From Pempheris klunzingeri (taxonomy: Eukaryota > Chordata > Actinopteri > Acropomatiformes > Pempheridae), in the NCBI RefSeq assembly GCF_042242105.1, contig NC_092022.1, positions 24,885,001 to 24,949,000 on the forward strand: 64,000 nt of DNA, read 5' to 3'. Of this stretch, positions 17,628 through 64,000 are shown one piece after another. The translations under genes and the position numbers were made by a program. How positions within the stretch are numbered: position 1 is the stretch's first letter; the number at the start of each line of letters is the position of its first letter. The notes beneath the pieces were generated by a model, which worked only from the letters and a program-made list of their open reading frames with translations, had not been told where the DNA came from and did not search any database.

Positions 17628-18205
17628 TCCTCGCAGCAAAACTGACTGACTGACTCAATGACTCAGTGACGATGAAGTAGCTTAACAAATTATCTGAGTA
17701 CAGACAAAGGGCTTGGGGAACCAACCTGTACAGTGTATGCTTGAATCTAACATTTCCAGCACTGCTGCGGCGAGCATGAGTCCCTCTGTTCTATTTAGAC
17801 ATTTTATTTTGAAGGGCTCGTGTCACGCGCAGTGTCAGTCTGCTCCGTGTGTAACAAGGCAAGCGAAGGACCCAAGTGCAACACCACAGTGCTTAACTGT
17901 GTTCTTTAATGAACATCAGTATAAAAAGTGAGCAAGCATGTTCATTTACAGCCGTTGTCCCAGAGTGGGGAACAACAAGAGACATTTGAAGTGACAACAA
18001 TAAAATACAAGAATGTCAGTGCATAAGTACAAAAAGACACGATGTGTTAATGCATTCATTCTACAACATGACAGGTTGAGAGCAATCACCGGATTGTATT
18101 CTACAGGTACAGTCATTGAAACTGCAGTTGCTGGTATGATGTCAACATGGTATCACAGATCTATTTTTGCTGTGAAGATGTTGAATTTCTAGATAAGCCA
18201 ACCCT
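17628..18205. other. 3' flank of receptor copy A with shared duplication sequence
   Basis: The right portion (from about 17885) matches the 3' flanks of copies C, D and E, for example the GTTGTTCCCCACTCTGGGACAACGGCTG block in reverse. A joint near 17880 marks the left edge of the duplicated array. Confidence 0.6.
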
Positions 18206-21200
18206 CTACCTGGGCTGTGTGGCTGCTCCAAAGTAAATCCAACAGGTTCCACGATGCAAAAGCTGCTCAAGCAGGCAACATTTCCTCTGCAGTGTCACAT
18301 GAGGAGCAACATCCTGAGGAGAGAAAAGCTCTTAGTTTAAGCAGAAACATCTTGTAACTTGTAAAGACATCGAATGGCTCCATCACACAGTCCTCACTCA
18401 GTGAATATGTGAATGGAAAACTCACTGCTGTCTTACCTGCTGTCATGTCATGTGGAAGCTTTCCTCTCTAATCACACTCTCCTTTATCGTGAAATATTGA
18501 GAAGAGTGACATCATTTAATCAATCATTCCATGTACACTCTGCTGTACATACAAGTACAAGATGGATGAAGAGAGTAGAAAACATACCTGTCTGGGATTG
18601 ACTGCATCGCTTATTGTGTCTGTAATCAAACGTAACCAATGATTAAAACCTTAATGAACAACTTCAGTGACAGACATTATTATCATCCACCAACAATGGT
18701 AATGTTCAGACTACGGAAACATAAATCATACCTCTGTTTAGAGATCCTCTCTCTTCCATGTCTCTTCCATTTTTCAAATTTTCTCTCTTCTTCTTTCTTC
18801 CTTTCTTCCTCATCAGTAAATAAAGCAGAACACCAGCAGCACCAACAACACCAACAAGACCAACAACACCACCAATCACAGGTCCTGTCATGTTTGAACC
18901 TTGTTCTCCACATTCAGCATCCATTGAAACAGTTCCTGGTTTTTCCAGCAGAAGATTCAATGATTCACATCTGGAGGGACAGAGGGAGATTTTGTACAGG
19001 AACATTTGTAGGATCCCATGAACTCACTGCTGTTGGAAGAACTGAGGAGTCTAATGTGAAGCTGCACTTACTGTGTGTGCTGCTGACAAGATGTAAATGT
19101 CCCATCTGAAAAGGTTCCAGCAGTGCAGTCAGAGCAGTCAGTGTCCTCTGAGGCTGTTCCTGCACAAACACAAATGAGATCTATTTAAAGGGGGCAGCAG
19201 GTGCATATTATGAAGGGATCACAGTGTTAGGTGACTTCTAGGTGTGACTCCAAACAGTCATGTGTTTAACCACTCATTCAAACCACAACTGACCGCAGAG
19301 ACTCTTTCTTTTTTCTACTTGTGCCGACATGACATCTCTACCTGGAGATCTTTTCTTACCACGGACATCCTTCCCCTTACTGGATGCAACCATTTCTCCT
19401 CTGAAGATTGAAATGATCAACAAGTTGACTGACTGAGACCCAAAAGAGCCTGAAGAAAGTTTCATTTGACTCCACATTCCCAAACCTGCAGCCTTCTGGA
19501 CCAGGACTGAACTCTGACTAAAACATTTCCGTGTGTTCCCATAAGGTCGAAGTAAGATGCTGTCATGGCTCCTCAGCCGGATCTCTCTCAGCTGAGCTCA
19601 GTGACTTAGCGGACTCATTTCACTGATGCACTGACATGGACTCACATGGACTCAGAGACACTCACATGCACTAACATTAACACACAGTCGTCCCAACGAC
19701 CAGAACAAAGGACGGAGAAGCTGGGATTACATGACACACAGAGGGAGAGAGGTGTCATTGTGTGTCAGGGCACCATTGCTGCACTGCATCTTTACACAGA
19801 CAAGAGTTGTTTAACGTTCTGAACGTCAGATTGAGATCCTTCATGTCAGATTCCCTGAACTTTGGCATTCTCATCTAAACCTCACAACATATTTACAACA
19901 TAATCTAAAGGTCGGCACGATAACACCAACCTTTTTGCCTGATGTATTGTCCTGGTAGACAGCTTGTGTGTTTCTGTGCTGCTGCACAGCCGTCCTCTGT
20001 AGGGTCCATACAGTAGAATCCTTCCAGTGGTTCACAGACTGTATCTGATGTTCTCGTACATGACGTCTTTATCTTCAGGCCAGAGCCTGTCAGCACACAC
20101 AGAGGTTAATATGGAATATGGAGAACTTTTATTCTGTTTAAGCAACATGCTACATTTCTTTCTGACCATTCGCTTTCATGTCATTATTTGGAAATGTGAA
20201 ACAATCGTTTTAATTTCTGAATTCAAGGGAAAACATCTGCACATACAGCATTGATCTGACAGGGTGAAGAGGTGATTGTGGCAGGAAAAGGAGAGATGGA
20301 TGGAAGGTGTCAGTGAGATCAGTTAAATCATTATTAGTCCCATTCATACAACCTCTCTACTCATGAATATGAACATGTTATAACAGGACATTACCTGCAT
20401 CACAGGTTGTGCACGTTAAGCATTGTTTACGACCAGTAGGCTGATTCACGAAGGTTCCCTCGGTGCAGGGAACACAGGTTCTGTTTATGGTCCTCGTGCA
20501 ATCTGTTTTAACTCGGGTTCCTGTTGAACAGAAAACAACATAATGTTTCTACTGAATGAAAATGTATCGTCTTGAGGGTGAAGCACATTTTGTCAGCTGT
20601 GCAAAGTGACATGAACTGCTGTCTACTGCAGTGGCATTCTTATTACTACCTCCAGATGCAGCCAATCATTTTTAGAGAGGATTACACTCAGTTAGGTGTA
20701 TTAGGTACACCTAACTGAAGCTAACGTAGACTACAACCAGGGCCACGCAAGAGGCAGAGGAGCCCTGAAGCACTGCCTGCTTCCTTTCAGCAGCCATGTC
20801 AGAAATACTGCAGAGCTCCATGGGGCACTTGTGACCTCCAGCAATGGTTGTGTCTGTTCTATTTTGAGTGAATCTGGACAGAAAACACACTGATGATCTA
20901 TTACACATGATACAAACGATCAGATTCTGATGAATGATCAATATCTGCATCCCAGGTTTGCCAACTCTTTTGATTTTGATCTTAACGTTATCCATTGATG
21001 ATGTTCCTGATAAAGATCAGCTGTACGTGCAGTTCTAAAGGGAGCAGAGTCTCTTGTTGACGGGTGTTTCTGACCTTTTTCTGTCTCCAGCCTAAAGCAA
21101 CAGCCCTACAATCAATTCTAGCTTCTTGGAGGTTCTCATGCTCACTTCTTTGAAGCCGTTTTAGAAAGGACTTTATAAACTGGCAACTGAGTAAATAAAG

Positions 21201-22407
21201 TTCTGGATTTTCCAGCTTGTTCTTTTCCTGTTGAACTCCAGTCAGACACATTTCACTTGTGAATATAAACCGCACCAACAATGGGAGTGGCTCCACTGAT
21301 CTGCACATGGAAGCCTTGTTGGCACCTGGCAGATCTTTAAAACACTCCATGTGTTACTATCAGAGTGAAATATCCCTTTAACATTCAGTTTAATCTTACC
21401 AGGAAGACACATAGGACAGCAGTTCTTGTCTATCTGGTACTCTGAGCGATGGCATGTGAAGGTTTGACCTCTGATGACAGTCATCATAAGTATCTGTGAA
21501 GAGTAACAGAAGGTTTTTGTCTCACTCAGTGATCTTGATGCTTTTTGACAACAAAATGTTTCTGTTTTGACACATTGTAATTTCAATATGGCTTAAAAAT
21601 GATATCTCTGTTTTTAGGCTCTGCTGTGAATCTACATTTTCTCACCCTACAGGTAAACAAACACTAATTATAACAACTAAAATGCTACTAAAAATACTAA
21701 ATACTATATTATAACTTATGTGTTTGCTGCAGTACTCAGATCTTTTTCTAAAGTAAAAGTTGTAACACAACAGGATGGAAACACTGTTACAAGTAAAAGT
21801 CCTGCTTTAAAAAGCACAAGTCCAACAGTGTTAGCATATTTTAAGTACAGGTGAAAGTGTACTTCTTATAAAGTATTTCAGAATATCATCTATAGTAATT
21901 ATTAAAATAATAAATGATTGTCCATCAGCAGCAATCTTCCTGATGCACAGGGATGACAGTTCAGGTGCTGGAGCGTGAGTGCAGCAGCAGATCGTCTGTC
22001 AGACTTTCATGTTGTTGGCTGTGGTTTGTCTGTTCAGTTCTGTTCTTGTGCTGCTTGTTGGAACATTTCTGTGTTCTTTAGTTGAACCTGTTGGTTAGTG
22101 GATCCCATACAGATCCAGTGGTGTCAAAGTGATGGCTCACAGCCTGGCTCTGGACAGCGGGTCAGGAGCTGTTTGGACCCGGTCTGGCTCTGGTTCTGTC
22201 TAATGACCCTGTGTAGCCGCAGTGGGGTTTGACTGCACGGTAAGCACGGGGCAGGTGCTTCCAGACAGAAATGTTGGAGGAGTATTATGATGACTGAGAT
22301 GCTGCTTAGCAAACAATATCTTGCTGTAATAACATTATTATGACGTGACATTATTACAGTTATTTTACCAGCAATGATGCAGCTGCAGCTTTTTGTGCCG
22401 ACATCAT
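18206..22407 (-). CDS. tnfrsf14: TNF receptor superfamily member 14 (HVEM)-like, copy A, intact
   Basis: Eight coding exons (minus strand, 5' to 3'): 22407-22369, 21493-21400, 20520-20395, 20086-19931, 19159-19072, 18970-18732, 18619-18588 and 18313-18206 (882 nt, 293 residues). All junctions are GT-AG in consistent phase. Exon 1 gives MMSAQKAAAASLL, which with the exon 2 start (ILMMTVIRGQTFTC) forms a signal peptide. CRD1 has CHRSEYQIDKNCCPMC; CRD2 and CRD3 follow, with HTSCLPGQYIRQKG; CRD4 has EDTDCSDCTAGTFSDGT. An N-MT glycosylation site precedes a membrane helix at about residues 197-221, then a Lys/Arg-rich stop and a short tail. These match HVEM in order and spacing. The tail has a PRQD sequence over the last junction, a possible weak TRAF contact (inference). 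CD40 is the main alternative family. Confidence 0.88.
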
Positions 22408-24009: not shown

Positions 24010-24450
24010 CCTGCCTGAGACCTAAGGAACTGTGATTAATGTGCTCTCATTAATGCAAAATACATTTGGCAACATTCCCCCATCAAACTCCTGCAGCATC
24101 TAATGTTCAGCATATGAACTTGTTTTCTGTAAATGGGTTGAAATTGTATCCTTATCCTTAATACTAATACTAACACTATTGATTAGACATGAGGCCCAGA
24201 CTAACAGAGAGGAACAGCAGCAGTGCTTCAGACCTTCACATCATGATGGGAAACATCTGGCTGTTGCCTGATCAGCTGATTGGCTCTTATGACCACAAAC
24301 ATGAGGTTTTGTAGAGAATCCTTATTTTCTGTGCAATCGTAATATTAGTGCTGGATGTTATTGTTTATTATCTTATGTTGAGCAATGCAGATGTAACACA
24401 TTAACAAACATCCAGTGTGAGGTTTAGTGGAATAATTATAAAAGACTTAA
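24010..24450 (+). repeat. Duplication segment shared with 47.5-47.9 kb (-) and 61.9-62.3 kb (+)
   Basis: The block from CCCCATCAAACTCCTGCAGCATC through GAGGTTTTGTAGAGAATCC to the ATCCAGTGTGAGG end occurs three times, once inverted. It marks outer flanks of duplicated units. No coding content was recognised. Confidence 0.8.
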
Positions 24451-24459: not shown

Positions 24460-24970
24460 GGTTAAATATGTGCAGTTTTATTTTGAAATGTCACTGAACG
24501 CACGTAAGGAAGTGGCAGGTAAACTCCAAGGTGATGACGGTGAGGAGCAGGGGGAGAGAAACAAGTGATGAAGAAGTAAAGAGAAACGGAAGAGTAAAAA
24601 GGAGTTCAGCTGCAGTTGGAACAACAACAAGGTTCAGTAATTGTTGGTGTAAAAGAAGTACTGTGGTAATTATGAAGCAAACTAACGTGACTTCTTTGTG
24701 TTGTAGTTTCTATTTAGTTGGTTTATGACCTGCATTCACAGTGAAGGACATCAGACCACCAGTCCTGGCTTTCACTGATATCCACTGGTGCTGATCTCCC
24801 TTTGCAGCAGTCACTGACACCTTCCATCCATCTCTCCTTTTCCTGCCACAGTCACTTCTTCACCCTGTCAGATCAATGCCGTGTGTGCAGATGGTGTCCC
24901 ATGAATTCAGAAATTAAAACGATTGTTTCACATTTTCAAATAATGACATGAAACCGTGTCTGTGCTGACA
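24460..24970 (+). repeat. Duplication segment with conserved short frame (copy 1 of 4)
   Basis: The segment starts around TTGAAATGTCACTGAACGCACG. It is repeated at 32585-33000, 41995-42420 and, inverted, 56215-56640, each time next to a CRD3 fragment. A 65-codon frame (MMTVRSRGRETSDEEVKRNG...) is open in every copy, but no family is recognisable and recent duplication alone could explain it. Confidence 0.7.
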
Positions 24971-24971
24971 G

Positions 24972-25060
24972 GCTCTGGCCTGAAGATAAAGACGTCATGT
25001 ACGAGAACATCAGATACAGTCTGTGAACCACTGGAAGGATTCTACTGTGAGGACCCTCTG
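24972..25060 (+). pseudogene. TNFRSF14-like CRD3 exon fragment F
   Basis: The first half of the CRD3 exon (GSGLKIKTSCTRTSDTVCEPLEGFYC) follows an intact acceptor (GCTGACAG). Sequence then switches, after GAGGACCCT, into the TGCAGTACTG repeat and the unrelated block starting GTTGGGGCTAGGC. No other receptor exon lies in position to join it. Confidence 0.75.
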
Positions 25061-28052: not shown

Positions 28053-31000
28053 ATGATGTTGGCACAAAAAGCTGCAGCTGCAGCATTGCTGGTAAAATAA
28101 CTGTAATAATGTCAAGTCATAATAATGTTATTACAGCAAGATTTAGTTTGCTAAGCAGCATCTCAGTCATCATAATACTCCTCCAACATTTCTGTCTGGA
28201 AGCACCTGCCCCGTGCTTACCTATGAGCTATGTGTGAGCTAACGCTAACCTTACTTAGCATAGGTCCACATGAACAGAAAGAAAGACGAGGAGGGTTGGG
28301 CGGTGGTAACTGCGGCTACGCAGGGCCATTAGACAGAACCAGAGCCAGACCGGGTCCAAACAGCTCCTGACCCGCTGTCCAGAGCCAGGCTGTGAGCCAT
28401 CACTTTGACACCACTGGATCTGTATGGGATCCACTAACCAACAGGTTCAACTAAAGAACACAGAAATGTTCCAACAAGCAGCACAAGAACAGAACTGAAC
28501 AGACAAACCACAGCCAACAACATGAAAGTCTGACAGACGATCTGCTGCTGCACTCACGCTCCAGCACCTGAACTGTCATCCCTGTGCATCAGGAAGATTG
28601 CTGCTGATGGACAATCATTTATTATTTTAATAATTACTATAGATGATATTCTGAAGAAGTACACTTTCACCTGTACTTAAAATATGCTAACACTGTTGGA
28701 CTTGTGCTTTTTAAAGCAGGACTTTTACTTGTAACAGTGTTTCCATCCTGTTGTGTTACAACTTTTACTTAAAAAGTACTGCAGCAAACACATAAGTTAT
28801 AATATAGTATTTAGTATTTTTTAGTAGCATTTTAGTTGTTATAATTAGTGTTTGTTTACCTGTAGGGTGAGAAAATGTAGATTCACAGCAGAGCCTAAAA
28901 ACAGAGATATCATTTTTAAGCCATATTGAAATTACAATGTGTCAAAACAGAAACATTTTGTTGTCAAAAAGCATCAAGATCACTGAGTGAGACAAAAACC
29001 TTCTGTTACTCTTCACAGATTCTTATGATGACTGTCATCAGAGGTCAAACCTTCACATGCCATCGCTCAGAGTACCAGATAGGGAACAAATGCTGTCCTA
29101 TGTGTCTTCCTGGTAAGATTAAACTGAATGTTAAAGGGATATTTCACTCTGACAGAAACATATGAAGTGTTTTAAAGATCTGCCAGGTGCCAACAAGGCT
29201 TCCATGTGCAGGGATCCCAAAATCCAAAGGGTTGGCAAACCAGGGATACATATTTTGATCATTCATCAGAATCTGATCGTTTGTATCATGTGTAATAGAT
29301 CATCAGTGTGTTTTCTGTCCAGATTCACTCAAAATAGAACAGACACAACCATTGCTGGAGATCACAAGTGCCCCATGGAGCTCTGCCGTATTTCTGACAT
29401 GGCTGCTGAAAGGAAACAGGCAGTGCTTCAGGGCTCCTCTGCATTTTCATTCAATAGAAACATTATGTTGTTTTCTGTTCAACAGGAAGCCGAGTTCATA
29501 TACATTGCAGGGCGTTCAGAAGCAGCTCCTGTGTTCCCTGCACCGAGGGAACCTTCATGAATCAGCCTACTGGTCGTAGACAATGTTTAACTTGCAGAAC
29601 CTGTAATACAGGTAATGTCCTGTTAGAACATGTTCATATTCATGAGTAGAGAGGTTGTATGAATGGGACTAATAATGATTTAACTGATCTCACTGACACC
29701 TTCCATCCATCTCTCCTTTTCCTGCCACAATCACCTCTTCACCCTGTCAGATCAATGCTGTATATGCAGATGTTTTCCCTTGAATTCAGAAATTGAAACT
29801 ATTGTTTCACATTTTCAAATAATGACATGAAAGCGAATGGTCAGAAAGAAATGTAGCACGTTGCTTAAACAGAATAAAAGTTCTCCATATTCCATATTAA
29901 CCTCTGTGTGTGCTGACAGGCTCTGGCCTGAAGATAAAGACGTCATGTACGAGAACATCAGATACAGTCTGTGAACCACTGGAAGGATTCTACTGTATGG
30001 ACCCTACAGAGGACGGCTGTGCAGCAGCACAGAAACACACAAGCTGTCTACCAGGACAATACATCAGGCAAAAAGGTTGGTGTTATCGTGCCGACCTTTA
30101 GATTATGTTGTAAATATGTTGTGAGGTTTAGATGAGAATACCAAAGTTCAGGGAATCTGACATGAAGGATCTCAATCTGACGTTCAGAACGTTAAACAAC
30201 TCTTGTCTGTGTAAAGATCCAGTGCAGCAATGGTGCCCTGACACACAATGACACCTCTCTCCCTCTGTGTGTCATGTAATCCCAGCTTCTCCGTCCTTTG
30301 TTCTGGTCGTTGGGACGACTGTGTGTTAATGTTAGTGCATGTGAGTGTCTCTGAGTCCATGTGAGTCCATGTCAGTGCATCAGTGAAATGAGTCCGCTAA
30401 GTCACTGAGCTCAGCTGAGAGAGATCCAGCTGAGGAGCCATGACAGCGTCTTACTTCGACCTTATGGGAACACACGGAAATGTTTTAGTCAGAGTTCAGT
30501 CCTGGTCCAGAAGGCTGCAGGTTTGGGAATGTGGAGTCAAATGAAACTTTCTTCAGGCTCTTTTGGGTCTCAGTCAATCAACTTGTTGGTCATTTCAATC
30601 TTCAGAGGAGAAATGGTTGCATCCAGTAAGGGGAAGGTTGTCCGTGGTAAGAAAAGATCTCCATGTAGAGATGTCATGTCGGCACAAGTAGAAAAAAGAA
30701 AGAGTCTCTGTGGTCAGTTGTGGTCCTTTGAATGAGTTAACACATGACTGTTTGGAGTCACACCTAGAAGTCACCTAACACTGTGATCCCTTCATAATAT
30801 GCACCTGCTGCCCCCTTTAAATAGATCTCATTTGTGTTTGTGCAGGAACAGCCTCAGAGGACACTGACTGCTCTGACTGCACTGCTGGAACCTTTTCAGA
30901 TGGGACATTTACATCTTGTCAGCAGCACACACAGTAAGTGCAGCTTCACATTAGACTCCTCAGTTCTTCCAACAGCAGTGAGTTCATGGGATCCTACAAA

Positions 31001-31396
31001 TGTTCCTGTACAAAATCTCCCTCTGTCCCTCCAGATGTGAATCATTGAATCTTCTGCTGGAAAAACCAGGAACTGTTTCAATGGATGCTGAATGTGGAGA
31101 ACAAAGTTCAAACATGACAGGACTTGTGATTACTGTTGTTGGTGTTGTTGGTGTTGTTGGTGCTGTTGGTGTTCTGCTTTTTTTTCTGAGGAAGAAAGTA
31201 AGAAAGAAGAAGAAAGAAAAATTGAAAAATCGAAGAGACATGGAAGAGCGAGGATCTCTAATCCAAGGTATGATTTATGTTTCCGTAGTCTGAACATTAC
31301 CATTGTTGGTGGATGATAATAATGTCTGTCACTGAAGTTGTTCATTAAGGTTTTAATCATTGGTTACGTTTGATTACAGACACAACAAGACAATGA
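28053..31396 (+). CDS. tnfrsf14: TNFRSF14-like receptor, copy B, truncated cytoplasmic tail
   Basis: Seven coding exons: 28053-28091, 29019-29112, 29486-29611, 29920-30075, 30846-30933, 31035-31267 and 31380-31396 (753 nt, 250 residues). The signal exon reads MMLAQKAAAAALL. CRD1 (YQIGNKCCPMC) and the start of CRD2 (SRVHIHCRAFRSSSC) differ strongly from copies A, C and D, while CRD3 and CRD4 are nearly the same. The membrane helix is intact and followed by a long Lys/Arg stretch. In the seventh exon the frame reads DTTRQ and stops, because a deletion has fused it to downstream 3' sequence. The last exon with the rest of the tail is therefore gone. Membrane-anchored, with little signalling tail: a decoy-like receptor is possible (inference). 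Confidence 0.82.
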
Positions 31397-32029: not shown

Positions 32030-32129
32030 TAAGGTCAAATGTCTCTTGTTGTTCCCCACTCTGGGACTATGGCTGTATGAACATGCTTGCTCACTTTTTA
32101 TACTGATGTTCATTAATGTGCTCTCCATC

Positions 32130-32245
32130 CATTATTTATACCACTTATCCGTCAGGGTCTCAGGGGAGCTGGAGCCAATCCCAGCTGACTTTGTGCGAGA
32201 GACAGGGTCCACCCTGAACTAGTCGCCAGCCAATCACAGGGCCAC
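32130..32245 (+). mobile_element. Short interspersed repeat (GGAGCCAATCCCAGCTGAC type)
   Basis: The tract CAGGGGAGCTGGAGCCAATCCCAGCTGAC followed by CGCCAGCCAATCACAGGG is a common fish interspersed repeat. It appears also near 33180, 41560, 42600, 45930 and 63250. Confidence 0.65.
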
Positions 32246-32295
32246 ATTTGTTAGGCACTGTTTCTCTGCTTTTCACTTTGTAACACTTTGTATTT

Positions 32296-32540
32296 AACCA
32301 AATCAAATCAAATCAAATCAACTTTATTGGCCAAGTCTGAACAGGCAAACAAGGAATTTGACTCGGTGAAGCTTGACTCTCTCTGTACAGTGAGGAAATA
32401 AAGTAGAAATAAACTACAACAGGACTACAGAACAGTATAAACAAATATAGAACTCTTTAACAGCACACTAACTTTTGTATTGTACTCTGGCAAAGTAATT
32501 TCCTTAGGAATCAATAAAGTTGATCTTATCTTTTATTTTG
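32296..32540 (+). mobile_element. LINE 3' tail with (AATCA)n
   Basis: An AATCA pentamer run leads into AACTTTATTGGCCAAGTCTGAACAGGC and ends in GGAATCAATAAAGTTGATC, as in fish LINE 3' ends. Duplicated at 41705-41945. An independent related copy lies at about 34597-34850. Confidence 0.65.
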
Positions 32541-32584
32541 AAATGTGTTTTATGTACCCATTTCCTGTGATAAAGGAAGTTTTA

Positions 32585-33000
32585 TTTTGAAATGTCACTG
32601 AACGCACGTAAGGAAGTGGCAGGTAAACTCCAAGGTGATGACGGTGAGGAGGAGGGGGAGAGAAACAAGTGATGAAGAAGTAAAGAGAAACGGAAGAGTA
32701 AAAAGGAGTTCAGCTGCAGTTGGAACAACAACAAGGTTCAGTAATTGTTGGTGTAAAAGAAGTTCTGTGGTAATTATGAAGCAAACTAACGTGACTTCTT
32801 TGTGTTGTAGTTTCTATTTAGTTGGTTTATGACCTGCATTCACAGTGAAGGACATCAGACCACCAGTCCTGGCTTTCACTGATATCCACTGGTGCTGATC
32901 TCCCTTTGCAGCAGTCACTGACACCTTCCATCCATCTCTCCTTTTCCTGCCACAGTCACTTCTTCACCCTGTCAGATCAATGCCGTGTGTGCAGATGGTG
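32585..33000 (+). repeat. Duplication segment with conserved short frame (copy 2 of 4)
   Basis: Same block as 24460-24970. The 65-codon frame at 32635-32832 differs by only a few residues. Confidence 0.7.
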
Positions 33001-33304
33001 TCCCATGAATTCAGATTTCCAAATAATGACATAAAAACCGGTGCAAGACGGACGAAAGTGAAAGCATTTGCCAAGAATGTTTTCATTAATCAAGAATGAA
33101 AGTCGGAGGTCCGAACATAAATACCGATCCAGCAGCGTTATTCCCCTAATCTGCAGGGCAGCGTGTGACCCTGTGATTGGCTGGCGACTCCAAGTCAGCT
33201 GGGATTGGCTCCAAGTACAGACAATGGATGGATGGACATGAAAACAAATGGTGAGTTTAAACAAAATAAAAGTTCTCCATATTAACCTCTGTGTGTGCTG
33301 ACAG

Positions 33305-33611
33305 GCTCTTGAAGATAAAGACGTCATGTACGAGAACATCAGATACAGTCTGTGAACCACTGGAAGGATTCTACTGTGAGGACCCTACAGAGGACGGCTG
33401 TGCAGCAGCACAGAAACACACAAACAAGGAAATTATGCAGGAAGTTATGCAGAGTTATTCAGCTATCAAGCATCACACATTTGAATGCAGACCTAAACTG
33501 TGCACTGGAAGCTGTACGATGAACACATTTAGTCAGAAGTATGGAAAAATGTTGGACTTAGTCAGGACGGCTGTAAGTAAAGCCTCATACGTAGAATACC
33601 TGCACAGGTGA
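33305..33611 (+). pseudogene. TNFRSF14-like CRD3 fragment G with unrelated C-terminal extension
   Basis: The CRD3 exon lacks four bases (GGCC) right after its acceptor, so splicing from a normal CRD2 exon would shift frame and stop. The downstream frame is nevertheless open: KIKTSCTRTSDTVCEP, then CEDPTEDGCAAAQKHT. It then enters novel sequence NKEIMQEVMQSYSAIKHHTF and ECRPKLCTGSCTMNTF, ending with a stop near 33611. There is no CRD1, CRD2 or membrane exon around it. Confidence 0.7.
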
Positions 33612-33613
33612 TC

Positions 33614-41945: not shown

Positions 41946-41994
41946 TTATTTTGAAATGTGTTTTATGTGCCCATTTCCTGTGATAAAGGAAGTT

Positions 41995-47439: not shown

Positions 47440-47890
47440 AATAATAAATAATTAGGTAAATAATATAATAATAATAATAATAAACCTCACACTGGATGTT
47501 TGTTCATGTGTTACATCTGCATTGCTCAACATAAGATAATAAACAATAACATCCAGCACTAATATTACGATTGTACAGAAAATAAGGATTCTCTACAAAA
47601 CCTCATGTTTGTGCTCATAAGAGCCAATCAGCTGATCAGGCAACAGCCAGATGTTTCCCATCATGATGTGAAGGTCTGAAGCACTGCTGCTGTTCCTCTC
47701 TGTTAGTCTGGGCCTCATGTCTAATCAATAGTGTTAGTATTAGTATTAACTAACACCAACACATTGATTAACAGACAGCAGAAGGATACAATTTCAACCC
47801 ATTTACAGAAAACAAGTCCATATGCTGAACATTAGATGCTGCAGGAGTTTGATGAGGGAATGTTGGCCAATGTATTAAACATTTATGAAC
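47440..47890 (-). repeat. Duplication segment, inverted copy of 24010-24450 and 61900-62270
   Basis: The same flank block as described at 24010, in opposite orientation, preceded by a (TAA)n run at 47462-47482. Confidence 0.8.
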
Positions 47891-48688: not shown

Positions 48689-51600
48689 CTACCTGGGCTG
48701 TGTGGCTGCTCCAAAGTAAATCCAACAGGTTCCACGATGCAAAAGCTGCTCAAGCAGGCAACATTTCCTCTGCAGTGTCACATGAGGAGCAACATCCTGA
48801 GGAGAGAAAAGCTCTTAGTTTAAGCAGAAACATCTTGTAACTTGTAAAGACATCGAATGGCTCCATCACACAGTCCTCACTCAGTGAATATGTGAATGGA
48901 AAACTCACTGCTGTCTTACCTGCTGTCATGTCATGTGGAAGCTTTCCTCTCTAATCACACTCTCCTTTATCGTGAAATATTGAGAAGAGTGACATCATTT
49001 AATCAATCATTCCATGTACACTCTGCTGTACATACAAGTACAAGATGGATGAAGAGAGTAGAAAACATACCTGTCTGGGATTGACTGCATCGCTTATTGT
49101 GTCTGTAATCAAACGTAACCAATGATTAAAACCTTAATGAACAACTTCAGTGACAGACATTATTATCATCCACCAACAATGGTAATGTTCAGACTACGGA
49201 AACATAAATCATACCTTCGTTTAGAGATCCTCTCTCTTCCATGTCTCTTCCATTTTTACATTTTTCTCTCTTCTTCTTTCTTCCTTTCTTCCTCCTCAGA
49301 AAAAGCAGAACACCAGCAGCACCAACAACACCAACAACACCAACAACAGCAATCACAAGTCCTGTCATGTTTGAACTTTGTTCTCCACATTCAGCATCCA
49401 TTGAAACAGTTCCTGGTTTTTCCAGCGGAAGATTCAATGATTCACATCTGGAGGGACAGAGGGAGATTTTGTACAGGAACATTTGTAGGATCCCATGAAC
49501 TCACTGCTGTTGGAAGAACTGAGGAGTCTAATGTGAAGCTGCACTTACTGTGTGTGCTGCAGACAAGATGTAAATGTCCCATCTGAAAAGGTTCCAGCAG
49601 TGCAGTCAGAGCAGTCAGTGTCCTCTGAGGCTGTTCCTGCACAAACACAAATGAGATCTATTTAAAGGGGGCAGCAGGTGCATATTATGAAGGGATCACA
49701 GTGTTAAGACATAAGACATAAGAGGTTTTATTGTCATTGTACAACTTAACAGCATACAACGAAATTGCGTTGGTACGCCCGGTCTAAAATATTAAAATAT
49801 AGAAATACTAAAATATAGACAAAAAAAAAACACACACATACATATATACATACATATGCACAGACATATGAAAATTTAATATATATATCAATAGTGTTAG
49901 ATTGACTGAGACCCAAAAGAGCCTGAAGAAAGTTTTATTTGACTCCACATTCCCAAACCTGCAGCCTTCTGGACCAGGACTGAACGCTGACTAAAACATT
50001 TCACACTTCAGAGTTTGATATCGTCCATAACCTAATCATTCATGTGGCTCATCATTTCCTAGAAATTTGACTCTTTATGTTAATTGGTTGCTTTTCTTTT
50101 CAGTTTGTTTAGTAGTTCTTTATTAATTATGATTATTTATGTTCCTTATCAATCATCATTTAATCAATATTTTAGAGGCATTTATAAATGACCTAGCATT
50201 TATTCAGTGGGTCTGTGTCCGTAATAATCTAAAGGTCGGCACGATAACACCAACCGTTTTGCCTGATGTATTGTCCTGGTAGACAGCTTGTGTGTTTCTG
50301 TGCTGCTGCACAGCCGTCCTCTGTAGGGTCCATACAGTAGAATCCTTCCAGTGGTTCACAGACTGTATCTGATGTTCTCGTACATGACGTCTTTATCTTC
50401 AGGCCAGAGCCTGTCAGCACACAGAGGTTAATATGGAATATGGAGAACTTTTATTCTGTTTAAGCAACGTGCTACATTTCTTTCTGACCATTCGGTTTTA
50501 TGTCATTATTTGAAAATGTGAAACAATCGTTTTAATTTCTGAATTCAAGGGAAAACATCTGCATATACAGCATTGATCTGACAGGGTGAAGAGGTGATTG
50601 TGGCAGGAAAAGGAGAGATGGATGGAAGGTGTCAGTGAGATCAGTTAAATCATTATTAGTCCCATTCATACAACCTCTGTACTCATGAATATGAACATGT
50701 TCTAACAGGACATTACCTGCATCAGAGGTTGTGCAAGTTAAACATTGTGTACGACCAGTAGGCTGATTCATGAAGGTTCCCTCGGTGCAGGGAACACAGG
50801 TTCTGTTTATGAACATCGTGCAATCTGTTTTAACTCGGCTTCCTGTTGAACAGAAAACAACATAATGTTTCTATTGAATGAAAATGTATCGTCTTGAGGG
50901 TGAAGCACATTTTGTCAGCTGTGCAAAGTGACATGCACTGCTGTCTACTGCAGTGGCATTCTTATTACTACCTCCAGATGCAGCCAATCATTTTTAGAGA
51001 GGATTACACTCAGTTAGGTGTATTAGGTACACCTAACTGAAGCTAACGTACAACCAGGGGACACGCAAGAGGCAGAGGAGCCCTGAAGCACTGCCTGCTT
51101 CCTTTCAGCAGCCATGTCAGAAATACTGCAGAGCTCCATGGGGCACTTGTGACCTCCAGCAATGGTTGTGTCTGTTCTATTTTGAGTGAATCTGGACAGA
51201 AAACACACTGATGATCTATTACACATCATACAAACGATCAGATTCTGATGAATGATCAATATCTGCATCCCAGGTTTGCCAACTCTTTTGATTTTGATCT
51301 TAACGTTATCCATTGATGATGTTCCTGATAAAGATCAGCTGTACGTGCAGTTCTAAAGGGAGCAGAGTCTCTTGTTGACGGGTGTTTCTGCCCTTTTTCT
51401 GTCTCCAGCCTAAAGCAACAGCCCTACAATCAATTCTAGCTTCTTGGAGGTTCTCATGCTCACTTCTTTGAAGCCGTTTTAGAAAGGACTTTATAAACTG
51501 GCAACTGAGTAAATAAAGTTCTGGATTTTCCAGCTTGTTCTTTTCCTGTTGAACTCCAGTCAGACACATTTCACTTGTGAATATAAACCGCACCAACAAT

Positions 51601-52726
51601 GGGAGTGGCTCCACTGATCTGCACATGGAAGCCTTGTTGGCACCTGGCAGATCTTTAAAACACTCCATATGTTACTATCAGAGTGAAATATCCCTTTAAC
51701 ATTCAGTTTAATCTTACCAGGGGGACACATAGGACAGCATTCGTCCCCTATCTGGTACTCTGAATGATGGCATGTGAAGGTTTGACCTCCGATGACAGTC
51801 ATCATAAGTATCTGTGAAGAGTAACAGAAGGTTTTTGTCTCACTCAGTGATCTTGATGCTTTTTGACAACAAAATGTTTCTGTTTTGACACATTGTAATT
51901 TCAATATGGCTTAAAAATGATATCTCTGTTTTTAGGCTCTGCTGTGAATCTACATTTTCTCACCCTACAGGTAAACAAACACTAATTATAACAACTAAAA
52001 TGCTACTAAAAAATACTAAATACTATATTATAACTTATGTGTTTGCTGCAGTACTCAGATCTTTTTCTAAAGTAAAAGTTGTAACACAACAGGATGGAAA
52101 CACTGTTACAAGTAAAAGTCCTGCTTTAAAAAGCACAAGTCCAACAGTGTTAGCATATTTTAAGTACAGGTGAAAGTGTACTTCTTATAAAGTATTTCAG
52201 AATATCATCTATAGTAATTATTAAAATAATAAATGATTGTCCATCAGCAGCAATCTTCCTGATGCACAGGGATGACAGTTCAGGTGCTGGAGCGTGAGTG
52301 CAGCAGCAGATCGTCTGTCAGACTTTCATGTTGTTGGCTGTGGTTTGTCTGTTCAGGTCTGTTCTTGTGCTGCTTGTTGGAACATTTCTGTGTTCTTTAG
52401 TTGAACCTGTTGGTTAGTGGATCCCATACAGATCCAGTGGTGTCTAAGTGATGGCTCACAGCCTGACTCTGGACAGCGGGTCAGGAGCTGTTTGGACCCG
52501 GTCTGGCTCTGGTTCTGTCTAATGACCCTGCTTAGCCGCAGTGGGGTTTGACTGCACGGTAAGCACGGGGCAGGTGCTTCCAGACAGAAATGTTGGAGGA
52601 GTATTATGATGACTGAGATGCTGCTTAGCAAACAATATCTTGCTGTAATAACATTATTATGACTTGACATTATTACAGTTATTTTACCAGCAATGCTGCA
52701 GCTGCAGCTTTTCGTGCCGACATCAT
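48689..52726 (-). CDS. tnfrsf14: TNFRSF14-like receptor, copy D, intact
   Basis: Eight coding exons (minus): 52726-52688, 51811-51718, 50842-50717, 50410-50255, 49636-49549, 49447-49215, 49102-49071 and 48796-48689 (876 nt, 291 residues), all GT-AG and in phase. The signal peptide is MMSARKAAAAALL joined to ILMMTVIGGQTFTC. CRD1 reads HHSEYQIGDECCPMC; CRD2 has TDCTMFINRTC and ends CLTCTTSDAG, where copy A has CLTCTTCDAG, so one cysteine is a serine. CRD3 ends IRQNG. The helix, basic stretch and complete tail are present. Further 5' a minisatellite exon (54222-54285, three units) and an untranslated exon (54608) give a second possible promoter. A LINE tail lies in intron 4. Confidence 0.87.
49705..49890 (-). 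mobile_element. LINE 3' tail in intron 4 of copy D
   Basis: The tract TTTTATTGTCATTGTACAAC followed by AACGAAATTGCGTTGG is a common fish LINE tail (reverse orientation). It interrupts sequence that is continuous in copies A, B, C and E, so it is a recent private insertion. Confidence 0.7.
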
Positions 52727-55892: not shown

Positions 55893-55986
55893 TACTGCAG
55901 AGCAACACGTCAGTACTGCAGAGCAACACGTCAGTACTGCAGAGCAACACATCAGTACTGCAGAGCAACACGTCAGTACTGCAGAG
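55893..55986 (-). repeat. 21-bp minisatellite, about four units
   Basis: Same unit as 34955-35102 in inverted orientation. Confidence 0.9.
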
Positions 55987-56066
55987 GGTCCTCACAGTAG
56001 AATCCTTCCAGTGGTTCACAGACTGTATCTGATGTTCTCGTACATGACGTCTTTATCTTCAAGAGC
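55987..56066 (-). pseudogene. TNFRSF14-like CRD3 exon fragment I
   Basis: Inverted equivalent of fragment F, joined at the same GAGGACCCT point to the 21-bp repeat. It carries the four-base deletion after the acceptor (CTTGAAGATAAAG) that F lacks. Not translatable from a normal receptor. Confidence 0.72.
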
Positions 56067-56214
56067 CTGTCAGCACACACAGAGGTTAATATGGAATATG
56101 GAGAACTTTTATTCTGTTTAAGCAACGTGCTACATTTCTTTCTGACCATTCGGTTTCATGTCATTATTTGAAAATGTGAAACAATCGTTTTAATTTCTGA
56201 ATTCAAGGGAAACC

Positions 56215-57341: not shown

Positions 57342-60300
57342 ATTCTTATGATGACTGTCATCAGAGGTCAAACCTTCACATGCCATCATTCAGAGTACCA
57401 GATAGACAAGAACTGCTGTCCTATGTGTCCCCCTGGTAAGATTAAACTGAATGTTAAAGGGATATTTCACTCTGATAGTAACACATGAAGTGTTTTAAAG
57501 ATCTGCCAGGTGCCAACAAGGCTTCCATGTGCAGGGATCCCAAAATCCAAAGAGTTGGCAAACCAGGGATGCAGATATTGATCATTCATCAGAATCTGAT
57601 CGTTTGTATCATGTGTAATAGATCATCAGTGTGTTTTCTGTCCAGATTCACTCAAAATAGAACAGACACAACCATTGCTGGAGGTCACAAGTGCCCCATG
57701 GAGCTCTGCAGTATTTCTGACATGGCTGCTGAAAGGAAGCAGGCAGTGCCTCAGGGCTCCTCTGCATTTTCATTCAATAGAAACATTATGTTGTTTTCTG
57801 TTCAACAGGAAGCCGAGTTAAAACAGATTGCACGGCGTTCAGAAGCAGCTCCTGTGTTCCCTGCACCGAGGGAACCTTCATGAATCAGCCTACTGGTCGT
57901 AGACAATGTTTAACTTGCACAACATCTGATGCAGGTAATGTCCTGTTAGAACATGTTCATATTCATGAGTAGAGAGGTTGTATGAATGGGACTAATAATG
58001 ATTTAACTGATCTCACTGACACCTTCCATCCATCTCTCCTTTTCCTGCCACAATCACTTCTTCACCCTGTCAGATCAATGCTGTATATGCAGATGTTTTC
58101 CCTTGAATTCAGAAATTGAAACGATTGTTTCACATTTCCAAATAATGACATGAAACCGAATGGTCAGAAAGAAATGTAGCACGTTGCTTAAACAGAATAA
58201 AAGTTCTCCATATTCCATATTAACCTCTGTGTGTGCTGACAGGCTCTGGCCTGAAGATAAAGACGTCATGTACGAGAACATCAGATACAGTCTGTGAACC
58301 ACTGGAAGGATTCTACTGTATGGACCCTACAGAGGACGGCTGTGCAGCAGCACAGAAACACACAAGCTGTCTACCAGGACAATACATCAGGCAAAAAGGT
58401 TGGTGTTATCGTGCCGACCTTTAGATTATGTTGTAAATATGTTGTGAGGTTTAGATGAGAATACCAAAGTTCAGGGAATCTGACATGAAGGATCTCAATC
58501 TGAATCAGAACGTGTTGTGAGTGTCAACACGGCCCTGCTCTGACATCGGGTCTCGAAGAGTTGACTGACGGCAGGTAGATCAGACCCGGTGATCCTCTGT
58601 GCCGCTTTGATGACCCTCTGCAGTGCCTTCTGCTCCCTCTTGTGGCATCCTGCATACCACGCTGTGATACAGTACGTCAGGATGCTCTCCACCGTGCACC
58701 GGTAGAAGTTGGTGAGGAGGTTCCGTGATAGACCAGCCTTCCTCAGTTTCCTCAGGATATAGAGGCGTTGTTGTGCTCTGCTGGTGACATGGGAGGTGTG
58801 TGCGCTCCAGGAGAGGTCCTCGGTGATGTGAACCCCCAGAAACTTAAAGGTGGGGACTCTCTCCACAGCCTCTCCGTTGATGGTCATAGGAGCAGTGGCC
58901 GTCCTCCTGGACCTCCTCAAGTCCACCACAATCTCCTTGGTCTTTTTACTGTTCAGGATGAGATTGTTGGTGGAGCACCAGATTGTCAGGTTTTGTACCT
59001 CGCTCCTGTATGCTGTCTCGTCGTTGTTGGAGATCAGCCCCACAACCGTTGTGTCGTCCGCGAACTTGATGATGGTGTTAGTTGCGTGGACAGGCTGACA
59101 GTTGTGGGTGAAGAGGGCAAAGAGGAGGGGGCTCAAGACACATCCTTGGGGCACACCGGTGTTTAGGGTGATGGAGGAGGATGTGTGATTCCCCAACCTG
59201 ACAGACTGGGGGCAGTTAGTGAGGAAGTCCAGTGTCCAGTTGCAGATGGTGGAGTTTAGGCCGAGGTTGTGCAGTTTAGAGACCAAGGCGCTGGGGATGA
59301 CTGTGTTAAAGGCCGAACTGAAGTCCAGGAAGCGCAGCCTGGCATAGGTGTTGGGTTTCTCCAGATGCTCCAGGGCCGTGTGCAGGACGGTGCTGATGGC
59401 GTCCTCAGTTGACCTGTTGGCTCGAATTGGCGAACTGGTGCTGGTCCAGTGTGGCAGGGATGGTGCGTTTGATGTGAGCCATGATTAACCTTTCAAAGCA
59501 TTTCGCAATCACTGGTGTGAGTGCCATCAGCCTGTAGTCATTCAAGCTGCTCACAGTTTTCAGCTTAGGGATGGGCACGATGGTGGTGGTTTTGAGGCAT
59601 GTCAGTGCATCAGTGAAATCGAGCTGGAAAACGAGTCTGCTAAGTCACTGAGCTCAGCAGAGAGAGGGAATGACAGAAATGACAGAAAATGAATACTAAA
59701 CAAACTGAAAAGAAAAGCAACCAATTAACATAAAGAGTCAAATTTCTAGGAAATGATGAGCCATATAAATGATTAGGTTATGGACGATATCAAACTCTGA
59801 AGTGTGAAATGTTTTAGTCAGAGTTCAGTCCTGGTCCAGAAGGCTGCAGGTTTGGGAATGTGGAGTCAAATGAAACTTTCTTCAGGCTCTTTTGGGTCTC
59901 AGTCAATCAACTTGTTGATCATTTCAATCTTCAGAGGAGAAATGGTTGCATCCAGTAAGGGGAAGGTTGTCCGTGGTAAGAAAAGATCTCCATGTAGAGA
60001 TGTCATGTCGGCACAAGTAGAAAAAAGAAAGAGTCTCTGCGGTCAGTTGTGGTCCTTTGAATGAGTGGTTAAACACATGACTGTTTGGAGTCACACCTAG
60101 AAGTCACCTAACACTGTGATCCCTTCATAATATGCACCTGCTGCCCCCTTTAAATAGATCTCATTTGTGTTTGTGCAGGAACAGCCTCAGAGGACACTGA
60201 CTGCTCTGACTGCACTGCTGGAACCTTTTCAGATGGGACATTTACATCTTGTCAGCAGCACACACAGTAAGTGCAGCTTCACATTAGACTCCTCAGTTCT

Positions 60301-61126
60301 TCCAACAGCAGTGAGTTCATGGGATCCTACAAATGTTCCTGTACAAAATCTCCCTCTGTCCCTCCAGATGTGAATCATTGAATCTTCTGCTGGAAAAACC
60401 AGGAACTGTTTCAATGGATGCTGAATGTGGAGAACAAGGTTCAAACATGACAGGACTTTCGATTGCTGTTGCTGTTGTCAGTGCTGTTGGTGCTGCTGGT
60501 GTTCTGCTTTTTATTCTGAGGAGGAAGAAAGTAAGAAAGAAGAAGAAAGAAAAACTGAAAAATGGAAGAGACATGGAAGAGCGAGGATCTCTAAACAAAG
60601 GTATGATTTATGTTTCCGTAGTCTGAACATTACCATTGTTGGTGGATGATAATAATGTCTGTCACTGAAGTTGTTCATTAAGGTTTTAATCATTGGTTAC
60701 GTTTGATTACAGACACAATAAGCGATGCAGTCAATCCCAGACAGGTATGTTTTCTACTCTCTTCATCCATCTTGTACTTGTATGTACAGCAGAGTGTACA
60801 TGGAATGATTGATTAAATGATGTCACTCTTCTCAATATTTCACGATAAAGGAGAGTGTGATTAGAGAGGAAAGCTTCCACATGACATGACAGCAGGTAAG
60901 ACAGCAGTGAGTTTTCCATTCACATATTCACTGAGTGAGGACTGTGTGATGGAGCCATTCGATGTCTTTACAAGTTACAAGATGTTTCTGCTTAAACTAA
61001 GAGCTTTTCTCTCCTCAGGATGTTGCTCCTCATGTGACACTGCAGAGGAAATGTTGCCTGCTTGAGCAGCTTTTGCATCGTGGAACCTGTTGGATTTACT
61101 TTGGAGCAGCCACACAGCCCAGGTAG
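57342..61126 (+). pseudogene. tnfrsf14: TNFRSF14-like receptor, copy E, first exon missing
   Basis: Seven intact exons: 57342-57435, 57809-57934, 58243-58398, 60179-60266, 60368-60600, 60713-60744 and 61019-61126, encoding CRD1-4, stalk, membrane helix and full tail without a stop. The signal exon present in A, B and D is gone: homology to copy B ends about 56755, downstream of where it would lie. An unspliced start at 57249 would give a cytosolic-looking N-terminus, so secretion is doubtful unless a distant exon is used. CRD2 combines the copy B type (FRSSSC) with the D-type TTSDAG end, which lacks one cysteine. An L2-like insertion lies in intron 4. Classed as probable pseudogene or incomplete model. 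Confidence 0.68.
58525..59599 (-). mobile_element. L2/CR1-like LINE fragment in intron 4 of copy E
   Basis: The minus-strand frame 59286-58495 contains reverse-transcriptase motifs: [20 protein letters not shown], the catalytic-box variant [28 protein letters not shown] and [14 protein letters not shown]. Upstream to 59599 the frame shifts and includes PIPKLKTVSS-type sequence. It splits sequence that is continuous in copy C (GTGTTGTGAGTGTC before, ATGTCAGTGCATCAG after). It lacks a complete 5' part and is probably inactive. Confidence 0.88.
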
Positions 61127-61680: not shown

Positions 61681-61899
61681 TGTGAGCAAGGCAAATGAGA
61701 TCACCAGTGATTGCTCTCTACTGGTCATGTTGTAGAGTGAATTAATTAACACATTAACACATTGTGTCTTTTTGTACTTGTGCACTGACATTCTTGTATT
61801 TTATTGTTCAAATGTATATTGTTGTTCCCCACTCTGGGACAACGGCTGTAAATGAACATGCTTGTTCACTTTTTATACTGATGTTCATAAATGTTTAAT

Positions 61900-62270
61900 A
61901 CATTGGCCAACATTCCCTCATCAAACTCCTGCAGCATCTAATGTTCAGCATATGGACTTGTTTTCTGTAAATGGGTTGAAATTGTATCCTTATCCTTAAT
62001 ACTAATACTAACACTATTGATTAGACATGAGGCCCAGACTAACAGAGAGGAACAGCAGCAGTGCTTCAGACCTTCACATCATGATGGGAAACATCTGGCT
62101 GTTGCCTGATCAGCTGATTGGCTCTTATGACCACAAACATGAGGTTTTGTAGAGAATCCTTATTTTCTGTACAATCGTAATATTAGTGCTGGATGTTATT
62201 GTTTATTATCTTATGTTGAGCAATGCAGATAAAACACATGAACAAACATCCAGTGTGAGGTTTATTGTAA
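61900..62270 (+). repeat. Duplication segment shared with 24010-24450 and 47440-47890
   Basis: Same flank block as described at 24010, in plus orientation. It ends at CCAGTGTGAGGTTTATTGTAATAA. Confidence 0.8.
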
Positions 62271-62715
62271 TAACTAGAAAAATTGCAATTCCTGAAGAAA
62301 TTGTAGTGTGACTGCTGCCCCCTGCTGTCACACTGCTGCTGATTTACATGCTGAGTTGCAGCTCTGCCACCACCCAGTGGCTCAAACGTCAGTTATAAAC
62401 TGCTGCTTTTCTCAGGACCCGTTTGATGGTGCCCAAGGAATTGCTGATGACGTCACCACATACACACTCATATAAAATGAGAAGAGGGAGGGAATAAAAC
62501 TAAAGCTGTGATTTTTGACAAGACAGTAGATCATAGAGCTGAACCAACACCACCATGAGCAGCAGACGACTGCTGAACACGAAAATGCGTTATTTGTTTG
62601 AATAGAGTTGAAAAATTACCTTAATATTACCATAAAATGTTTTAGGCCTGCTCAAAACAGTTACTCTCCCTCATTGTGAGAGTGGACAGATAAGGTCAAT
62701 CTGTCCTCCACAGAG
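62271..62715. other. Sequence private to this unit
   Basis: It occupies the place where the mirrored unit carries the orphan receptor exons (46516-47440). No gene recognised; the ATGAGCAGCAGACGAC start at 62554 has only a short frame. Confidence 0.5.
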
Positions 62716-63393
62716 TGGCGTCTCCTTTATTGTTTTGAGAAGCAGATAGATAGAATATACCAGACTGACTTCTGCTATCTGTAATGCACAAACCACAACA
62801 GCAAATCAGAAAAGGTTACGTACTTTATTTATCCAAGAAGCATTTAAAAAAAGAGATGTTAGACTCAGTTTGTGGCTCCTCTGACCTTTTTAAAGAATAA
62901 GGACACAGGGACAAGTTTGTTATTTTTTATAACAGTGTGGGTGGTTTGCTGCTTGGATGATATTTTAACTGAATGAGGTGTGTGGTATCGATCAGATGAT
63001 ACTGATTGAGAATTCCGACACCTGATCCAGGTCAACAAGCAGTTCTGTGGGGGGCATTTGACTAGTAAGGGGACACTTTAGTTAAGGCATTTCAGAATTA
63101 CTGTGAATTAAAACGAGTGGTGAGACTGGGGGAATCCCTACCGATCAAGCACACAGACTGATAGAGTCTGTGTGGAAGCTTCTTGATTAGGTCCTCACTT
63201 GGGCACTGTGCCATTCACTGATTCTGCACAGCGTGTGACCCTGTGATTGGCTGGCGCCTCTCCTCGCCTCCAAGTCAGCTGGGATTGGCTCCAGGTATCA
63301 AGACAATGGATGGATGGACATGAAAACGAATGGTGAGTTTAAACAGAATAAAAGTTCTCCATATTCCATATTAACCTCTGTGTGTGCTGACAG

Positions 63394-63628
63394 GCTCTTG
63401 AAGATAAAGACGTCATGTACGAGAACATCAGATACAGTCTGTGAACCACTGGAAGGATTCTACTGTGAGGACCCTACAGAGGACGGCTGTGCAGCAGCAC
63501 AGAAACACACAAGCAAGGAAGTTATACAGGAAGTTATGCAGAGTTATTCAGCTATCAAGCATCACACATTTGAATGCAGACCTAAACTGTGCACTGGAAG
63601 CTGTACGATGAATGCCATAAGAGTTTAA
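63394..63628 (+). pseudogene. TNFRSF14-like CRD3 fragment J with extension
   Basis: Same four-base deletion after the acceptor as G and H. The frame then reads KIKTSCTRTSDTVCEP, CEDPTEDGCAAAQKHTSK, EVIQEVMQSYSAIKHHTF and ECRPKLCTGSCTMNAIRV to a stop. It is open from 63314 in the unspliced sequence. No signal peptide or other domain exon adjoins it. It is closely related to fragment H and less so to G. Confidence 0.72.
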
Positions 63629-63639
63629 AGTAAGTGGCA

Positions 63640-64000
63640 GGAGAAATACATTTTACACCATTTGGCAGCCATTCTTAGATCGTCTTGCCCAACCAGGTGG
63701 ACACTCTAACATGCCCACAGTGGTCCACTCACCTCGACCTTGAAACCTTGTTGGATTGTGATGCTGTAGTGATCTAGCATTGTATTTTGCTGCCCTTTGT
63801 ACGCCCAGTTCTGTTTTTGCTTTTGTATTCCTTGTTTTCAGGACAACCCCTATAAAGGAGTGGTTCTGCAGGTGGTGACCACAGACCATTTCTCTGTTCT
63901 CATCCTTTCTGGCTGATGTTTTGGTCACTTGGCATTTTGTCAGTGCTCTCAGCCCTAGAGGTAGCATGAGGTGGTGTCTACAACCCACAGAAGTTGCTCC
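63640..64000. other. Duplicated right flank of fragment J
   Basis: The part to about 63840 mirrors 45360-45596. Beyond it the sequence is private. A 111-codon frame on the minus strand (63988-63653) covers both parts and has no recognisable family. Confidence 0.45.

Follow-up and report, generated by a model that had tools for sequence, protein, structure and literature searches.

What keeps some exons of a young gene family different while the introns beside them remain identical? This question is raised by a stretch of 64,000 nucleotides from Pempheris klunzingeri (C11:24885001-24949000, in an assembly of 646 Mb and 439 contigs), hereafter the window, which carries an array of receptor genes resembling TNFRSF14 (HVEM). 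We added 40 kb of flanking DNA on the left and 80 kb on the right, comparing 184 kb in all; coordinates beyond 64,000, which apply to copies G and H, gene F' and a PEX10-like frame, continue the window numbering to the right. In this assembly, seven close copies (A to E, G and H) lie within one 70-kb stretch (18-88 kb) that contains no N, and they differ mainly in exons 2, 3 and 6, with the variants distributed among the copies as a mosaic. The explanation that we favor and consider probable is a young segmental-duplication array in which one edge of the receptor has been kept diverse by selection against gene conversion. From the sequence, we infer selection as the cause, as well as which copies may be expressed and which ligands they may bind.

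Anatomy and number of the copies

Self-BLAST of the window revealed five units that are mostly 95-99% identical over both exons and introns, with a few short pieces of lower identity. Exon models were set by the splice borders common to the copies. The copies are as follows, with the extents of the units in self-BLAST given in parentheses:

18443-22407, minus strand (18.1-22.8 kb): copy A, complete coding sequence of 8 exons, 270 amino acids
22407-22369, 21493-21400, 20520-20395, 20086-19931, 19159-19072, 18970-18732, 18619-18588 and 18481-18443, minus strand: exons 1 to 8 of copy A
18732-18970, minus strand: exon 6 of copy A, covering the end of the ectodomain, the transmembrane (TM) stretch and the juxtamembrane tail
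28053-31396, plus strand (27.4-32.0 kb): copy B, exons 1-6 and a truncated exon 7 ending in a stop; 250 amino acids, tail lost
37346-40473, plus strand (37.1-41.5 kb): copy C, open frame of exons 2-8, without the family exon 1
48926-52726, minus strand (47.9-52.8 kb): copy D, complete coding sequence, 268 amino acids; one conserved cysteine of cysteine-rich domain (CRD) 2 changed to serine
57342-60889, plus strand (56.75-61.9 kb): copy E, open frame of exons 2-8, without the family exon 1; an element in intron 4
Exon 1 at 69994, exon 6 to 76846: copy G, tail lost
84356-87426: copy H, complete, 270 amino acids
89122 to about 93600: gene F', a diverged HVEM-like gene adjoining H; exons set by eye
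20395-20520 (minus strand), 29486-29611, 38319-38444, 50717-50842 and 57809-57934: exon 3 with the hypervariable CRD1 patch in A, B, C, D and E, respectively

The first-pass annotation had described five TNFRSF14-like genes in alternating orientation. The five units and their orientations (A minus, B plus, C plus, D minus, E plus) are borne out, but five intact and equal genes can be ruled out, as some units lack exon 1 or the exons of the tail: C and E have no exon 1, B has no tail, and only A and D are complete within the window (A, D and H among the seven). The array had also been taken to be confined to the window, whereas G, H and the diverged TNFRSF gene F' follow to its right within 30 kb.

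The complete copies combine a signal peptide, cysteine-rich domains, one TM stretch and a short tail with a PRQE motif, which we take to fit the TRAF2-binding consensus; the hydrophobic signal and TM stretches were read by eye in A, B, D and H. Exons 2-6 have open reading frames in all seven copies. Within the window, a signal-peptide exon was found in A, B and D and not in C or E. A crude scan for signal exons upstream of C gave five candidates, of which two start from a single ATG, whereas 20 single-base shuffles averaged 0.45; two of the five (34240 and 36138) have good-looking donors. The same scan upstream of E gave none (shuffle mean 0.6). A, D and H are most likely the functional copies, and independent expression of C and E is unlikely; it is possible that C has captured a signal exon, although we do not claim it. 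B and G share a breakpoint inside exon 7, where they stop and are fused to a stretch holding a dispersed repeat, and possible poly(A) signals of their own are present at 32397 and 78546. Since they retain the ectodomain and TM stretch but have lost the tail, they would act as membrane decoys or dominant negatives if expressed. Adjoining signaling and tail-less TNFRSF copies are also a feature of the human TRAIL receptor cluster, to which the array may be compared in this respect, its own putative decoys being B and G only.

Because the copies are 95-99% identical, which is the range that confuses assemblers, an inflation of copy number by separate haplotypes or mis-joined reads has to be considered. 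A run of 2500 N lies directly to the left of the window, and the copy number is that of the assembly. However, the remainder of the 184 kb, including the array, contains no N, and the copies differ in their inverted and direct order, breakpoints, insertions and exon alleles. Two genome-wide searches, both of which score best candidates only, point the same way. The protein search (62 candidates scored, 60 matches listed) placed close copies only at C11:24.903-24.972 Mb; among the matches listed, no extra copies occur on other contigs, and the best identity outside the array is 44%, to an exon of F'. Exon 3 of B, used as a DNA query against the assembly, matched seven places among the best candidates, all within the array. 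Haplotype mixing, which had been named earlier as what would overturn the array, thus found no support as far as it can be tested here, and we consider an assembly artefact highly improbable.

Exon-limited variation and its possible causes

Exons and introns had initially been described as near-identical throughout the array. This does not apply to exons 2, 3 and 6, whose variation exceeds that of the neighboring introns where these align cleanly. The contrast is cleanest at exon 6, where 32 of 230 sites are variable in the five tailed copies and none of 439 intron and flank sites is (Fisher test, 3e-16). The edge of this exon is sharp in all seven copies, with 13 variable sites in its last 60 bp and none in the next 100-110 bp of intron. 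When variable sites are grouped, exons hold all 15 clusters, and exon 6 alone holds 12 (1.4e-5 if clusters were placed uniformly). Exon 2 is variable at 12/94 sites versus 7/260 in its flanks and exon 3 at 22/123 versus 22/376, while exons 4 (2/156), 5 (2/88) and 8 (0/39, in five copies) are nearly fixed.

Divergence was also estimated at nonsynonymous (dN) and synonymous (dS) sites. The copies have a mean dN of 0.086 and a mean dS of 0.064 in exons 2-3, compared with 0.0055 and 0.0040 for the remaining ectodomain and 0.108 and 0.043 for the TM stretch and tail, where nucleotide diversity (pi) reaches 0.094 at 0-fold versus 0.011 at 4-fold sites. Amino-acid changes make up a larger fraction than expected under neutrality in the TM stretch and tail (p 0.021) and in the combined set (p 0.017). 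Relaxed constraint alone was rejected as a cause, since it leaves the invariant introns around exon 6 unexplained.

The differences are distributed among the copies as a mosaic. Among 24 two-state characters (including exon-1 loss, tail loss and intron-2 type), 158 of the 276 pairs are incompatible, all four combinations being present; therefore, pieces must have been transferred among the copies or must have changed repeatedly. The differences between the exons could also have arisen by segment switching without selection, if exon pieces had been converted from a diverged and now lost donor, for example an intronless processed copy, so that the restriction to exons would reflect the donor. 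A cDNA-like donor would spare introns, the exon 3 patch changes as a block, and several codons differ at two or three bases together (CTT/CCC, GAC/GGG), all of which agree with this scenario. On the other hand, exons 4, 5 and 8 would be expected to change too, exon 3 of B matched, among the best candidates scored, the seven array copies only, and no processed copy appeared among the matches listed in the genome protein search. We regard such donor switching as improbable.

In the explanation that we favor, at least seven TNFRSF14/HVEM-like units would have arisen through successive rounds of segmental duplication, both direct and inverted, with the end of the array formed by H and F' as the most likely source. 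Gene conversion would homogenize many intron stretches together with exons 4, 5 and 8, and the identity of the introns would be due to this conversion and to the young age of the array. Exons 2-3 (CRD1 and the start of CRD2) and the TM and juxtamembrane part of exon 6 would stay different, with short segments being reshuffled. The simplest cause of the persisting differences in exons 2 and 3 and in the TM stretch and tail appears to be selection for different receptor edges.

Several results weigh against this explanation. The amino-acid excess over neutral falls short of significance in exons 2-3 (28.5 to 6.5, p 0.24), and for this reason the case for selection rests mainly on the exon-intron contrast, which is clean for exon 6 only and moderate for exons 2-3. 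Fisher tests such as that applied to exon 6 take sites as independent, an assumption that conversion breaks. Exon 1 is variable at 3/39 sites, and the cysteine at HVEM position 99 has been lost in D, E and G. Introns vary as well: variable sites amount to 20/150 after exon 1, 24/120 after exon 2, 14/60 before exon 3 and 8/40 after exon 4, with pi reaching 0.14 after exon 2 and 0.13 before exon 3, and 12/250 sites are variable after exon 3 in six copies. Most of this intron variation sets in suddenly, at distances of 131 and 100 bp downstream of exons 1 and 2, 45 bp upstream of exon 3 and 32 bp downstream of exon 4. These points resemble structural breaks, and self-BLAST alignments end there for some copies; nearer to the exons than these onsets, 4/130, 6/99, 2/44 and 2/31 intron sites are variable, in the same order.

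Several of these results are also what would be expected of neutral segmental duplicates, most of them decaying pseudogenes, whose exon differences would be older paralogous variation left by chance in patchy conversion. Variable intron stretches, a ratio of amino-acid to silent change in exons 2-3 that is not above neutral, the cysteine lost from three copies, the missing exon 1 of C and E, the missing tail of B and G and five isolated exon-4 fragments in the window all fit such a history. It is less easily reconciled with the frames of exons 2-6, open in seven of seven copies, or with variation that stops at the edges of exon 6 next to 439 identical intron and flank sites in five copies, as decay would mark introns equally. 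A neutral origin of the pattern therefore seems to us unlikely, though it deserves to be kept in view.

Among known systems, the closest evolutionary pattern that we can name, from the portion of PMC2711939 available to us, is ASSET (accelerated segment switch in exons) in snake venom genes, in which exon segments of young paralogs are switched at positions on the functional surface. The array is similar in that short exon segments are replaced and introns conserved, cleanly for exon 6 and partially for exons 2-3; it differs in that it encodes a host receptor, keeps its frames and most of its cysteines, and reshuffles segments among the copies themselves. The locus also illustrates clearly how exons can remain diverse although the introns on either side are identical. 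As a separate observation, the cytoplasmic side next to the membrane (exon 6, seven copies) varies as strongly as CRD1, for which we have no good explanation yet.

The receptor family and its variable edge

HVEM is an unusual receptor, as one small edge serves inhibitory immunoglobulin (Ig)-type partners while another face binds LIGHT; herpesvirus gD, a viral entry protein, docks at the same edge as BTLA and CD160. A, B and D, the three copies searched, belong to the TNF receptor superfamily by their sequences: their TNFR_c6 scores (68.7, 58.4 and 59.9 bits, respectively) exceed the curated cut-off of 29.4, and four stretches of A match this domain. The HVEM/CD40-type identity proposed in the first-pass annotation is upheld by the best solved relatives of A, namely ELR1 (PDB 3wvt, 7e-34), which we take to be the horse homologue of HVEM, human HVEM (1.9e-29) and CD40 (7.9e-26). 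F' shows the same order (ELR1 5.2e-34, HVEM 1.1e-20, CD40 1.8e-19). In their own genome, the array exons reach at best 28.2 bits with human HVEM versus 24.1 with CD40, so that neither these bits nor the scores of copy A place the array closer to CD40.

The identity with HVEM itself is less certain. Human HVEM scores loci on C18, C16, C8 and C2 higher (58.8-30.4 bits) than the best array exon (28.2 bits). This weighs against the assignment without deciding it, as the array is scored exon by exon and therefore low, and some of the rivals are single exons; the C2 gene (C2:14628324-14631036) is TNFR2-like by eye. The phylogeny suggested earlier as a check, an 11-sequence tree, leaves HVEM and CD40 unseparated and speaks neither for nor against the assignment. 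We therefore call the array TNFRSF14/HVEM-like, not proven TNFRSF14. Like human HVEM and ELR1 (3wvt), it has TNFR_c6 repeats, a CRD1 core of the form CCPxC-x-PG, a TM stretch and a short tail, and a PEX10-like neighbor may also be shared with the human gene; unlike HVEM, it comprises seven copies rather than one, truncated variants and exon-limited diversification. CD40 (TNFRSF5) has a similar CRD layout and a strong sequence match, but scores below HVEM, and candidate CD40-like exon sets occur elsewhere on C11 (21.727 and 21.788 Mb, about 60 kb apart, on opposite strands).

When the copies are mapped onto human HVEM, the variation of the ectodomain concentrates in CRD1, where 11 of 14 positions are variable in the patch 61-74 compared with 11 of 96 elsewhere (110 positions compared; p 4e-7). 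According to the available part of PMC8558838, residues 72-77 of HVEM form the strand common to BTLA and CD160, while LIGHT contacts are located in CRD2 and CRD3. The variable patch thus takes in part of the BTLA/CD160-binding strand. Only 1 of 16 LIGHT contact positions is variable versus 3 of 6 positions of this strand, a contrast that loses some of its weight because p is 0.046 on 22 positions, uncorrected, and because the contacts are those of human HVEM as given in the same portion of PMC8558838, with N88 lying near LIGHT and not touching it. In addition, an N-glycosylation motif at the position of HVEM Gly72 is on in A, C, D and G and off in B, E and H, and a second motif occurs in D and G only.

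By this mapping, the CRD1 patch would correspond to the edge with the BTLA/CD160 strand, where a glycosylation motif is switched on or off, and the LIGHT face would be nearly fixed. We infer that the copies may share a LIGHT-like ligand and differ in another partner, either of Ig type or from a pathogen. In fish, a BTLA-type partner is plausible because a zebrafish BTLA-HVEM study is cited in the review PMC8043046, as far as its accessible text goes. Taking all of these elements together, the array might represent a germline-diversified set of checkpoint receptors, in which concerted evolution fixes the LIGHT face, many introns and exon 8, diversifying selection acts on the BTLA/CD160 edge of CRD1, the glycan at Gly72 serves as an on/off shield, and B and G either act as decoys or borrow downstream tail exons. 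We offer this joint proposal tentatively and doubt that it will hold in all of its parts. Within it, read-through splicing from B to C and from G to H, which lie on the same strand, would turn the ectodomains into interchangeable cassettes, an idea only. A paralog set that varies at the edge for Ig-type partners and hardly at the LIGHT face would make it possible to ask directly which of the partners shapes the evolution of the receptor, and whether fish rely on several HVEM variants in place of the single one of mammals.

Expansion of TNFRSF14 in a teleost is by itself not new, as more than one paralog, up-regulated together in anchovy gill, is already in print (PMC13403563); the part of that account available to us resembles the present case in being multi-copy and gives no gene structure, array or exon-level variation. 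By contrast, one comparative study, as summarized in the accessible portion of a 2018 review (PMC6001812), found HVEM in lungfish and not in teleosts. Among the titles listed in our literature search, whose coverage leaves out most subscription journals, none describes an HVEM array with exon-limited diversity, and no paper on tandem duplication of TNFRSF14 in teleosts was found.

Duplicated blocks and neighboring genes

The duplicated pieces outside the copies are listed below:

24047-24443, plus strand: flank block common to 47481-47876 and 61885-62281
45386-46503, no strand assigned: flank block 99.5% identical to 62720-63839, inverted
32035-33283, plus strand: block downstream of B, 98.6% identical to 41443-42696 after C
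46995-47223, minus strand: orphan 5' end F of a diverged TNFRSF gene, with signal exon and first CRD exon, duplicating the start of F'; exon ends set by eye
24957-25057, plus strand: isolated exon-4 fragment without the 4-bp deletion
33285-33423, plus strand: isolated exon-4 fragment with the 4-bp deletion
45709-45849, minus strand: isolated exon-4 fragment with the 4-bp deletion
55985-56086, minus strand: isolated exon-4 fragment with the 4-bp deletion
63374-63514, plus strand: isolated exon-4 fragment with the 4-bp deletion
58498-59484, minus strand: reverse transcriptase frame (RVT_1, LINE-like) in intron 4 of copy E

Segmental duplication rather than retroposition had been proposed on the basis of shared flank blocks and of shared tails after B and C (32.3 and 41.7 kb), the latter read as putative LINE; the reverse transcriptase frame that we identified lies elsewhere, in copy E. 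Self-BLAST confirmed the flank blocks at 24.05-24.44, 47.48-47.88 and 61.89-62.28 kb and the shared block after B and C at 98.6% identity; introns and flanks are duplicated and orientations mixed, and independent retroposition of the copies can be ruled out, as introns were duplicated with them. The three flank blocks also match a stretch just upstream of F' and around its start, and the block after B likewise follows G (78849-80128 matches 32474-33746). The duplication of 45386-46503 and 62720-63839 is very recent. The diverged start at 47.2 kb was considered as a sixth gene of its own and rejected, being the copied 5' end of F'. Since D together with the F fragment (49706-46545) matches the H-F' junction (86646-89804) at 96.3%, the H-F' end is likely to be the source of the array.

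A sixth isolated exon-4 fragment is located at 79.7 kb, to the right of the window. The 4-bp deletion is common to five of the six fragments, and we therefore believe that a decayed piece was copied along with the duplications. The reverse transcriptase element is recent, because a stretch between exons 1 and 2 of G (70779-71847) is 99.2% identical to 58531-59599 in E.

To the left of the array, filamin-type CH-domain frames and an RPL10-type gene were detected:

7268-7663: Ribosomal_L16 frame of the RPL10-type gene
6293-6425 and 7541-7673, plus strand: two SNORA70 genes, in or beside the RPL10-type gene at 6-8 kb

To the right of the array, a Pfam search of six chosen frames identified a Pex2_Pex12 domain frame at 100.1-100.6 kb, PEX10-like by eye. 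In the human gene order, PEX10 is a neighbor of TNFRSF14 at 1p36.32. Two further repeats lie among the copies. A BEL/Pao-type retrotransposon frame (43281-44558, minus strand) with Peptidase_A17 and DUF5641 is located between C and D, and an 18-bp minisatellite repeated 26 times (36541-37012), with long open frames on both strands, is found near the 5' break of copy C.

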